Below the pieces are notes generated by a model that was not told the DNA's origin, did not search any database, and was given only the letters and a program-made list of their open reading frames with translations. The translations under genes were made by a program, and so were the position numbers. DNA of 38,897 bases from Methanotrichaceae archaeon (GTDB taxonomy: Archaea; Halobacteriota; Methanosarcinia; Methanotrichales; Methanotrichaceae). Within the stretch, counting starts at the first letter, position 1. The number at the start of each line of letters is the position of its first letter. The stretch is from the NCBI GenBank assembly GCA_016927425.1, contig JAFGMR010000050.1, positions 1 through 38,897 of the forward strand, in the 5' to 3' direction. Positions 20,704 to 23,747 of this stretch are shown here, piece by piece.

Positions 20704-21126
20704 ATGGGAGAGGGGGCATTGGAGGGGCTCGATCTGCCGCTCACCCTCGGCCAGAGGGCGGCAGACTGGGTGACCGACACCGTTGGCTCATGGAGTTTCG
20801 TCCTTTTTCAGACGATAGTCGTGATCGTCTGGGCTCTGCTGAACATCACCCATCTGGTCCGTCCGTGGGATCCCTATCCCTTCATCTTCATGAACCTGAT
20901 CTTCTCCCTCCAGGCGGCCTATACCGCCTCATTGGTGATGATCAGCCAGAACCGCCAGGACGAGATGGCCCGACGGATGGCAAGGCACAACTACCTCCTG
21001 GATATCAAGGCAGAGGAGGAGGTCCGCGCAATCATCGCGAGCCTGGAGAGCCACGACCGGCTTCTCTGCGATGTTCATCAGGATCTAATGGAGATCAAGG
21101 CCGAGTGCAGGGCGATGAGGAGATAG
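20704..21126 (+). CDS. DUF1003 family membrane protein
   Basis: A 140-residue integral membrane protein. RAADWVTDTVGSWSFVLFQT, then a transmembrane segment with IVWALLN, then WDPYPFIFMNLIFSLQAAYTASLVMISQNRQ are the textbook DUF1003 signature with two transmembrane helices. A cytoplasmic helical tail with DRLLCDVHQDLMEIKAE follows. The frame is open further upstream, but ATG 20704 sits 5 nt after the preceding stop and gives the family N-terminus. The biochemical role of the family is not established. It is the last gene of the smc-led cluster. Confidence 0.88.
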   Translation: MGEGALEGLDLPLTLGQRAADWVTDTVGSWSFVLFQTIVVIVWALLNITHLVRPWDPYPFIFMNLIFSLQAAYTASLVMISQNRQDEMARRMARHNYLLDIKAEEEVRAIIASLESHDRLLCDVHQDLMEIKAECRAMRR

Positions 21127-21181
21127 CATTGAGATTTATGTACTCGGGGCTTTCGAGATAAAATCAAGAAGGGGATATGCA

Positions 21182-22540
21182 ATGCCAAAGGAAGAGGCAA
21201 AGATAGAGGGGATCGGTCGCATCTCGGTTGAGGGCTTTAAATCGCTTGCAAAACCGGTCTCCTGCGAGATTCGCCCTCTCACCATACTGGCGGGCCCAAA
21301 CAGCTCTGGGAAATCGAGCATCATGCAGCCGATGCTGATGATGAAGCAGACCCTCGAAGCAAGCTACGATCCAGGGGCGCTCTTGATAAACGGTCCAAAT
21401 GTTAGATTTACCAAGGTCGATCAGTTCCTCTCGGTTGCACCCCGCAAGAAGAAGAGGGAAGGCTTCATCGTTAAGATCTGGATGGGCGATGATATCTCGA
21501 TCGAGGAGACTTTCAAGAAGGCTAAAGGGCAGGGGATCCTCATTGAAGAGGCCATCTATGCTGATCGGATTGACGAGACCAGATTGCGCCTCGATATGAG
21601 CCACGAGGATATCCTCGCTGCGAATCCTCATCTGAAGCCGTTCTTTGATCGAATTGCATGGATGCACGGTGCGAAGGGGACGAGGATTGGACTCGATGTT
21701 GTCAGAAATCGTTGCTTCCTTGAGATCGCCTTTAACCTTGTTGATGAGTCCGCCGGAGTCTTCCAGCTACTCCAAGCATTCCCAGAATTCCCACGATTGC
21801 CAGGGGGCGAATCCATCGAGAGCTGCATCAGGGAGATGATCCACGTTCCCGCCCTGCGCGGAAATCCCCGAAGGAATTATAATATTGCGGCAGTTAGCGA
21901 TAAATTTCCAGGACTATTTTCAGAATACGTTGCAAGCGTGATAAATAGCTGGCAATCGGCGAAGGATCCTCGCCTCGAAGAGTTGAGAAGGGATCTTGAG
22001 GTGCTCGGGTTGACCTGGAAGGTTGAAGTGCTGCCCGTCGATGATACGAGCGTAGAGATACAGGTGGGCCGCCTGCAGCATGCAACAAGAGGGGGAGCAA
22101 AGGATCTCGTGAGCATCGCTGATGTAGGCTTTGGGCTCTCCCAGACCTTGCCTGTGCTCGTTGCCCTTCTCGCCGCAAAGCCAGGTCAGCTCGTCTATAT
22201 CGAGCAGCCCGAGATCCACCTTCATCCAAGCGCCCAGATCGCCATGGCCCAGGTGCTCGCCACAGCGGCCAGTAGAGGGGTTCGAGTGGTCGTGGAGACC
22301 CATAGCTCGCTGATCATCAAAGGAGTGCAGGCAATCGTTGCCGAGGGCAAGCTCGATCCGAAGATCGTCAAGCTCCACTGGTTCAAGAGAGGGCCGAAGA
22401 CCGGCGTAACCGAGGTCTTCAGTGCAGACCTGGACGAGGCCGGAAGATTCGGGGAATGGCCCGAGGAATTCGCTCAAATAGAGCTGGAGGTAGAGGGGCG
22501 TTATCTCGATGCGGCAGAGGCTCGATTGAGGGGCAGTTGA
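21182..22540 (+). CDS. OLD/SMC-like AAA ATPase with DUF3696-like C-terminus
   Basis: A 452-residue ATPase of the ABC/SMC-like AAA_15/AAA_21 group found in phage-defence and OLD-type proteins. Walker A GPNSSGKSS lies at 38-46 after the 'GFKSL' start strand. A signature-like segment DVGFGLSQTLPVLVALL precedes Walker B VYIEQPEIHLHP near 337-349, with the H-switch VVVETHSSLI near 370. The last 60 residues (KLHWFKRGPKTGVTEV, LDEAGRFGEWPEEF, YLDAAEARL) match the DUF3696 tail. No TOPRIM nuclease is attached. An AAGGGGAT site precedes the ATG. The PIN-like gene follows after 1 nt, so the two are translated as a unit. Function is inferred: an ATP-driven sensor that controls the nuclease. Confidence 0.85.
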   Translation: MPKEEAKIEGIGRISVEGFKSLAKPVSCEIRPLTILAGPNSSGKSSIMQPMLMMKQTLEASYDPGALLINGPNVRFTKVDQFLSVAPRKKKREGFIVKIWMGDDISIEETFKKAKGQGILIEEAIYADRIDETRLRLDMSHEDILAANPHLKPFFDRIAWMHGAKGTRIGLDVVRNRCFLEIAFNLVDESAGVFQLLQAFPEFPRLPGGESIESCIREMIHVPALRGNPRRNYNIAAVSDKFPGLFSEYVASVINSWQSAKDPRLEELRRDLEVLGLTWKVEVLPVDDTSVEIQVGRLQHATRGGAKDLVSIADVGFGLSQTLPVLVALLAAKPGQLVYIEQPEIHLHPSAQIAMAQVLATAASRGVRVVVETHSSLIIKGVQAIVAEGKLDPKIVKLHWFKRGPKTGVTEVFSADLDEAGRFGEWPEEFAQIELEVEGRYLDAAEARLRGS

Positions 22541-22541
22541 C

Positions 22542-23066
22542 TTGGCTTCGAAGAGGAAGCTGGTCATCGATGCCAGCGTTGCAAGGGCTGCAGGCGGGGA
22601 TTCGGCCGAGCATCCCACATCGAAGAGCTGCCGGGATCTCCTGAGGGCTGTACTCAAGATCAGTCATCACGCGGTATTCTCTGCCTCAATCAAGGCCGAA
22701 TGGAATGATCACCAATCTATCTTTTTTAGAAAATGGAGAAGTTCGATGATGGCAAGAAAGAAGCTCCACCTAATTGACGTCCCTGAGGACACCATCTTGA
22801 GGAGGAGGGTCGAGAGATCGGATTCCGGCACAGAAGCCATGATGAAGGATATCCATCTGATAGAGGCGGCTCTTCTGTCGGAAAAAAGGATCATCTCCTT
22901 GGATGAGGAGGCCCGTTCCTATTATGCCGCTGCCTCGGATCGAATAAAGGAGATCAAGAGCGTTTTATGGGTAAATCCCGATATGCAAGGGGAGGAGGCA
23001 ATCCAATGGCTCGAGAGGGGGGCCCCGGCCGATCACAACCGCCGATTGGACCAATATCATCGATGA
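22542..23066 (+). CDS. PIN-like nuclease partner of the ATPase
   Basis: A 174-residue protein starting MASKRKLVIDASVARAAGG, where the hydrophobic strand ending in Asp10 is the first PIN motif. Further acidic residues at spacing typical of PIN domains are Glu53 (SIKAEW), Asp103 (MKDIHLIEAALLSEKRIISLDEEA) and Asp121. This would bind metal and cleave RNA or DNA. The TTG at 22542 comes 1 nt after the ATPase stop; GAGGGG upstream supports it. Unlike VapC, the protein has no small antitoxin next to it; its only partner is the ATPase. I infer a regulated nuclease module. Activity and substrate are unknown. The cysteine-cluster gene starts 9 nt after it. Confidence 0.65.
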   Translation: MASKRKLVIDASVARAAGGDSAEHPTSKSCRDLLRAVLKISHHAVFSASIKAEWNDHQSIFFRKWRSSMMARKKLHLIDVPEDTILRRRVERSDSGTEAMMKDIHLIEAALLSEKRIISLDEEARSYYAAASDRIKEIKSVLWVNPDMQGEEAIQWLERGAPADHNRRLDQYHR

Positions 23067-23075
23067 GGTCAAATC

Positions 23076-23747
23076 ATGCCTGACGACGAGCGCCTAAAGA
23101 ATGCGAAGTTCCTCTGTCACAGGTTCTGCCCGCCATCTTGCATCCTCGATAAGAGCCTCGGCCTCCACGAGAGGATGCTCGAAGTTCGCCCCCATTGGTC
23201 GGTTCAAAGGAGGGAGGAGCAGCACAAGAGGATCGATCTGGGGGAGAAGGTGCCCTTCGATATCGCGCTTCCCCTGCCGGCAAAGGATCGGGGCTTTGCC
23301 GAGACCGCCCTTGGCGTAGAGCTCTTTCGGGAGATCTTCGAGTGCCAGCACTGTGGCAGATGCTGTTCCACGCCAGGGGCGGGGCTTGTCCTCGAGAACG
23401 GCGATTTCGAGCGAATCGCAAGGTTCATAGGATCGCAAAAGCGGCTCAAGTCGCTCTGCCGCCGCGATAAGGATAGCGGCTGCTGGATACTTCGCCAGCC
23501 CTGCCCTTTTTACGATCGCGGCTGCACCATCTATCCAGTGAGGCCTCTTACGTGCTTTCAGTACCCACTCCATCCGCCACTCAAGGAGATGCCCTATCAC
23601 CTGGCGGTCGACGCCTTCTGCCCGGCAGCGAGGAAGCTTGCCAAGGAGACCCTTGGCTGGTGGATCATATGCGAGGGCAACTGGGCGAGGCTGTTCGGCT
23701 CGGGTCGAGAGAGCCTCAAGGGATCTGTCTACAGGCGCATCCCCTAG
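23076..23747 (+). CDS. YkgJ-family cysteine-cluster protein
   Basis: A 223-residue protein with the YkgJ (CxxCxxCC) signature FECQHCGRCCSTPGAG near residues 87-103, then GCWILRQPCPFYDRGCTIYPVRPLTCFQYPLHP near 128-160, where the RPxxCRxFP-like block is diagnostic. The cysteines probably bind zinc or an Fe-S cluster; the cellular role of the family is not settled. The first 80 residues include two more cysteines (HRFCPPSC) and are not part of the common core. It starts 9 nt after the PIN-like gene and could be in the same transcript, but the family is common in methanogens outside such contexts, so a functional tie is uncertain. Confidence 0.85.
   Translation: MPDDERLKNAKFLCHRFCPPSCILDKSLGLHERMLEVRPHWSVQRREEQHKRIDLGEKVPFDIALPLPAKDRGFAETALGVELFREIFECQHCGRCCSTPGAGLVLENGDFERIARFIGSQKRLKSLCRRDKDSGCWILRQPCPFYDRGCTIYPVRPLTCFQYPLHPPLKEMPYHLAVDAFCPAARKLAKETLGWWIICEGNWARLFGSGRESLKGSVYRRIP

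Follow-up and report, generated by a model that had tools for sequence, protein, structure and literature searches.

The ATPase and PIN genes described here form a fixed, near-absolute 1:1 unit that is inherited together, and they represent a real, widespread two-gene ATPase–PIN system, apparently unnamed. The unit was found in a window of 38,897 nucleotides (the whole stretch of DNA analysed, contig C82 in a genome of 2.3 Mb) from a methane-making archaeon. We consider it probable, at roughly two chances in three, that the unit is a mobile cassette whose ABC-type ATPase binds a PIN-fold nuclease effector, restraining and gating it. By analogy with known systems, the pair is most likely a toxin-and-control unit directed against viruses or other genetic parasites.

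Pairing of the two genes across genomes

The arrangement originally proposed, a 174-aa protein encoded 1 nt downstream of the ATPase stop codon, was confirmed by the open reading frames. Coordinates of the genes, their motifs and their flanks are collected in Table 1.

Table 1. Features of the ATPase–PIN locus in the window
Feature	Coordinates	Strand	Basis or conservation
ABC-type ATPase, 452 aa, ATG start	21182..22540	+	ORF; PF13304/PF13175; NsnB/HEC-03B-like; without TOPRIM
Walker A GPNSSGKSS, ATPase residues 38-46	21293..21319	+	N40-S46 invariant in 46 homologues, many phyla
ABC signature-like motif DVGFGLSQ, residues 314-321	22121..22144	+	D314, V315, G316, G318, S320 invariant
Walker B / D-loop region QLVYIEQPEIHLHP, residues 336-349	22187..22228	+	V338, P343, E344, H346-P349 invariant
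H-loop/switch region ETHS, residues 372-375	22295..22306	+	E372, T373, S375 invariant
DUF3696-like tail, residues 392-430	22355..22471	+	Pfam PF12476, E 0.0047, under cut-off
PIN-fold nuclease partner (predicted), 174 aa, TTG start	22542..23066	+	AF2 pLDDT 96; Foldseek PIN matches; family alignment
Putative PIN catalytic Asp10	22569..22571	+	D 62/73, N 11/73 (all Poribacteria)
Putative PIN catalytic Glu53	22698..22700	+	73/73
Putative PIN catalytic Asp103	22848..22850	+	73/73
Putative PIN catalytic Asp121	22902..22904	+	71/73
Inserted cassette between DUF1003 gene and CxxCxxCC/YkgJ-like gene	21127..23075	.	Empty site in G006 (L100); GC3; flank Pfam
5' flank: DUF1003 gene	20704-21126		Pfam
3' flank: CxxCxxCC/YkgJ-like gene	23076-23747		Pfam

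Searching 100 relatives with the PIN protein gave 11 clear homologues, all from Methanothrix-like methanogens and each directly following an ATPase homologue, together with one fragment (L012) that has no adjoining ATPase. From the other side, an ATPase search of GTDB genomes yielded 80 loci carrying 17 phylum-level labels (at least 15 phyla). Contigs end within the ATPase in three of these and just past it in a fourth, where the opening PIN residues are still readable. A PIN gene or its remnant adjoins the ATPase within a few codons in 76/76 loci with readable downstream sequence, and the two genes usually overlap by a few bases.

When Methanotrichaceae, Cyanobacteria, Chloroflexota and Poribacteria were searched starting from the PIN, 56 intact PINs with examinable loci were obtained. 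A full-length ATPase lies directly upstream of 55, the remaining locus being cut by a contig end; since many of the 55 are closely related Poribacteria sharing one site, they do not represent 55 independent events. The predicted association is thus repeated elsewhere, at every locus where either partner could be assessed. No member of the PIN family was found outside the pair in 28 whole genomes. Distances between ATPases and between PINs were correlated (r 0.82 for 73 pairs, 0.47 with one pair per deep lineage), and none of 5000 permutations reached as high a value. The explanation that two unrelated genes became neighbours by chance is ruled out by the pairing counts obtained from both sides; no evidence in its favour was found, and we give it practically no weight.

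Domains, motifs and predicted folds

The ATPase matched Pfam AAA_21 and AAA_15 (2e-21), and no TOPRIM model matched it in the Pfam search, in agreement with the original prediction of an OLD/SMC-like ATPase without this nuclease domain. Its expression ‘DUF3696-like tail’ is fair wording, as the DUF3696 match lies below the Pfam cut-off; homologous plasmid ATPases carry the DUF3696 annotation, as do distant relatives on plasmids and phages. An ABC head with the Walker A, signature and Walker B motifs, as in ABC/OLD-type defence ATPases, was recognized; invariance was scored over the 46 homologues of Table 1, and DVGFGLSQ is taken as the signature-like motif from its position. The AlphaFold2 (AF2) model (pLDDT 89) has PtuA/retron I-A as its best Foldseek match, followed by SMC and Rad50 heads. 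The best PADLOC profiles are NsnB of Menshen (1.8e-57), HEC-03B (1e-36), PDC-M55A and AriA. As judged by profile comparison, the nearest annotated ATPase is that of Menshen, and not one from OLD, Septu or PARIS.

The PIN protein itself gave no meaningful score with any Pfam or NCBIfam family, and its sequence profile returned spurious matches only against the PDB. Among 50 homologues, four touch PIN_12, one PIN_3 (7.5e-5) and one PIN_8. A match of one member of these 50 to WYL/Csx1 in PADLOC (E 0.003) was rejected as a chance hit. The AlphaFold2 model built with 50 homologues was of high confidence (pLDDT 96, pTM 0.91), and its top Foldseek match in the PDB was the VapBC toxin 7vwo (probability 1.00, E 2.9e-3, TM 0.63 by target length). 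Further PIN proteins were matched with probabilities of 0.94-1.00 (HARP 7og5, VapC 5k8j, Nob1 2lcq and AF0591), PAE0151 was matched with a probability near 1, and Rad2 was among the weak matches; a Foldseek comparison with viral structures was uninformative. With E-values of only 3e-3 and TM scores of 0.4-0.6, the protein would be a divergent member. The predicted fold, together with the conserved acidic residues, nevertheless places it in the PIN-domain superfamily, as had been proposed from the sequence.

The four acidic residues singled out in that proposal were conserved in 73 homologues from many phyla, with the counts listed in Table 1, and all four are invariant across 10 Methanotrichaceae PINs. 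Eleven Poribacteria PINs (L052, L061, L071, L073, L074, L075, L077, L082, L086, L087 and L093) carry Asn in place of D10 and keep E53 and D103. Judging from this substitution, these proteins may be attenuated, inactive or repurposed nucleases.

A mobile accessory pair and its genomic surroundings

An empty site, low GC3, several insertion sites, a prophage copy and broken PINs mark the pair as a mobile accessory. G006, the nearest relative, has ScpB, a small protein, DUF1003 and the CxxCxxCC gene in conserved order and lacks the pair: the DUF1003 and CxxCxxCC genes, between which the window pair is placed exactly, are adjacent to each other. GC3 of the pair is 0.62-0.63 compared to 0.71-0.79 in eight flanking genes. 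Elsewhere in Methanotrichaceae, the pair occupies other sites: it precedes SMC in L014, adjoins a DUF2099 gene in L015 and L018, and directly follows an HsdR-HsdM-HsdS type I restriction-modification operon in L016. Independent acquisition of the window copy with respect to other Methanotrichaceae was hinted at by a quick tree and received no support from an AU test (p 0.95).

In Peribacillus loiseleuriae the pair lies within a prophage (L088:7153-20940). DnaB and integrase genes are located upstream of it, and genes for terminase, portal, a ClpP-type protease and capsid downstream; IMG/VR contains the same region as a viral contig (L164). A scan of 2.9 million viral contigs relying on short peptide patterns retrieved one pair locus by the ATPase and none by the PIN; a plasmid search with the window PIN found none either.

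Occurrence is patchy, broken copies included: 11/100 relatives, 14/386 Cyanobacteria, 8/350 Chloroflexota and 50/85 Poribacteria. Cyanobacteria and Poribacteria form phylum-wise clades in the tree. Six loci (L058, L063, L076, L079, L143 and L215) have a broken PIN beside an intact ATPase and some have lost both genes, while no intact PIN without an ATPase was found among the loci examined. Such lopsided decay is expected if the PIN is harmful without its ATPase; the numbers are small, and L058, L063, L076 and L079 come from the ATPase-first search, which is biased to intact ATPases.

The original prediction had proposed enrichment in defence islands as a check, and here the outcome was mild. 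Among neighbours of the pair (n=148), three type I methyltransferases and two specificity subunits were counted, against none and one, respectively, among random genes (n=148); with controls drawn from randomly chosen regions in only ten of the genomes concerned and counts made by family, this enrichment is suggestive at best. Two SIR2_2 and three Schlafen AlbA_2 proteins were also present, and most neighbours were ordinary. The case for defence rests instead on the ATPase family, the mobility of the pair and the prophage copy. Six cyanobacterial loci (L030, L043, L046, L048, L064 and L090) have the pair immediately ahead of rpsB-tsf and in the same orientation, a fixed site within a ribosomal operon region. 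Poribacteria copies occupy a shared site, and a Schlafen AlbA_2 plus HATPase_c_4 gene lies directly upstream of the pair in L055 (8515-9942), with a similar organization in about ten Poribacteria loci.

Relation to known systems and proposed function

The comparison with Septu, PARIS and OLD suggested in the original prediction holds for the general plan of an ATPase plus a nuclease, although the closest annotated ATPase belongs to Menshen (NsnA-NsnB-NsnC). Homology of the window ATPase to NsnB extends along almost the entire profile, with a score (194 bits) around half of what true NsnB proteins reach (348-365 bits). True Menshen (L098) has a DUF262 NsnA upstream, NsnC downstream and no PIN, and L167 and L168 resemble it. 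The window flanks carry DUF1003 and CxxCxxCC genes instead of the DUF262 NsnA or NsnC, and membership in Menshen was rejected.

HEC-03, a PADLOC candidate (HEC-03A and HEC-03B), is similar in layout: a homologous DUF3696-type ATPase is followed, in the same order, by a small PIN-like protein. HEC-03A overlaps its ATPase gene and has the PIN-like motifs VIDTNV...; ...DRK...AAD. It gave no match to the window PIN in PADLOC, and the probability was 0.6% in an hhalign profile comparison. The window ATPase reached 125 bits on HEC-03B, with the best stretch at residues 215-433, compared to 367-445 bits for true members. As the window pair lacks the HEC-03A partner and combines a different PIN-like protein with a homologous ATPase, its family is not HEC-03 but follows the same plan. 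The HEC-03 examined here is located on plasmids and usually has an RNA ligase as a third gene, which the window family does not have; no RNA ligase gene was found near its loci. The ligase follows HEC-03A in 4/5 operons (L094:3980-6542, L095:3455-6083, L169:1114-3732 and L171:1233-3693), was confirmed as PF09414 in L095 and L171, and is replaced by an HNH gene in L170. This suggests that the HEC-03 operon joins RNA cleavage and repair, and supports an RNA target for HEC-03 alone. The notion of the PIN as a different kind of effector thus stands with respect to HNH and TOPRIM, but a related ATPase is already paired with another PIN-like protein in HEC-03.

PARIS (AriA-AriB) also combines an ABC ATPase with a separate nuclease. 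AriA sequesters the tRNA nuclease AriB until a phage trigger, upon which translation is blocked (PMC11455837). AriB is a TOPRIM/DUF4435 protein whereas the window partner has a PIN fold, and the window ATPase scored at most 88 bits on the AriA profile; lacking an AriB partner, the pair was not assigned to PARIS. The same ATPase plus separate nuclease logic is common to Septu (PtuA-PtuB) and retron I-A PtuAB, the best structural neighbours of the ATPase model. Sequence similarity is marginal, the Septu nuclease PtuB is of the HNH type and no such partner is present, excluding Septu. OLD and Gabija GajA have the OLD-type ATPase domain in common with the window protein; neither the fused C-terminal TOPRIM nor a neighbouring GajB helicase is present, and both were discarded.

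A PIN-fold nuclease effector is shared with VapBC and with DefensePredictor DS-3 and DS-5, neither of which includes an ABC ATPase. VapC cuts tRNA, and VapB is a small DNA-binding antitoxin. The partner in DS-5 is a DUF5830/AcrIF4-like protein, in contrast to the ABC ATPase of the window pair. PIN catalysis is required for defence by DS-3 and DS-5, which makes PIN domains validated defence effectors (PMC13092281).

From PARIS, VapC and the DS-3/DS-5 PIN systems, we infer a mechanism that goes beyond the fixed two-gene unit. The ATPase and the PIN protein would form a complex in which the ATPase, acting as antitoxin and sensor, would keep the PIN inactive. A viral or plasmid-derived trigger would alter the nucleotide state or shape of the ATPase, and the freed or activated PIN would cut RNA, with tRNA or rRNA the likeliest targets by analogy with VapC and AriB. 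Translation would then stop and infection would be aborted, in a PARIS/Septu-like logic. A defence role is plausible, and no housekeeping role of the pair is documented.

We favour a defence-type toxin system because of the mobility of the pair, its prophage-borne copy and the proximity of the ATPase to defence profiles (NsnB, HEC-03B). The weak defence enrichment, the fixed rpsB-tsf site in some Cyanobacteria, the D10N PINs and the single viral locus count against it. Obligate pairing, an antitoxin-then-toxin order with overlap, decay of the PIN while the ATPase stays and the weak defence-island signal would also suit a plain toxin-antitoxin module serving addiction or stress, with the PIN as toxin, the ATPase as antitoxin and no dedicated anti-phage role. 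We hold this to be unlikely, as an ABC ATPase of 450 aa would be odd as a plain antitoxin, its closest profiles belong to defence systems and the prophage copy sits at a position typical of accessory genes.

Less likely still is a restriction-type nuclease, in which the ATPase would sense or scan DNA and the PIN would cut invading DNA. The resemblance of the ATPase fold to the DNA-handling heads of SMC and Rad50, the weak match of the PIN model to Rad2 and the copy located after a type I operon (L016) are consistent with it, and some PIN-related folds (FEN/Rad2) do cut DNA. The best structural matches of the PIN (VapC, HARP and Nob1) are, however, RNases, no DNA-binding domain was recognized, and an RNA ligase gene is part of the related HEC-03 operon. 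A housekeeping pair for RNA processing or translation control, vertically inherited in some phyla, could account for the position kept upstream of rpsB-tsf, the shared Poribacteria site and the phylum-wise clades; it is hard to reconcile with the patchy distribution, the empty site in G006 and the broken and prophage copies, and seems slightly more doubtful again. Each of these three explanations fits less of the evidence than defence by an ATPase-gated PIN.

Whether the pair represents an unnamed immune system spanning archaea and bacteria, in which a PIN ribonuclease of a family not represented in Pfam, NCBIfam or PADLOC is gated directly by an ABC-ATPase sensor, within a DUF3696-ATPase superfamily that repeatedly swapped effectors and in some versions carries its own RNA ligase for repair of the damage, is in our estimation evenly balanced. 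If so, a PIN ribonuclease would be added to the few effectors, TOPRIM and HNH, that are known to be under control of OLD/PtuA-like ATPases, in a compact two-gene system present in many phyla, methanogens included. Current annotation misses the pair: no family model exists for the PIN, and the ATPase passes as an isolated Menshen-like or DUF3696 protein. With the two genes nearly always found together, the system is easy to detect and test. The open-licence literature searched offered nothing useful on a PIN partner of DUF3696, on the function of HEC-03 or on the Menshen mechanism, and publication elsewhere is possible. In the HEC-03 operons, the presence of an RNA ligase hints at a connection between RNA cutting and repair that can be tested.

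Exchange of partners was observed in the wider ATPase group, which is found with NsnC, a restriction-like protein, HEC-03A or the window PIN. In P2-EC5 of E. coli ECOR5 (L097:243-2913), the NsnB/HEC-03B-like ATPase ORF555 is paired with ORF333, which from its sequence reads like a restriction-type protein.
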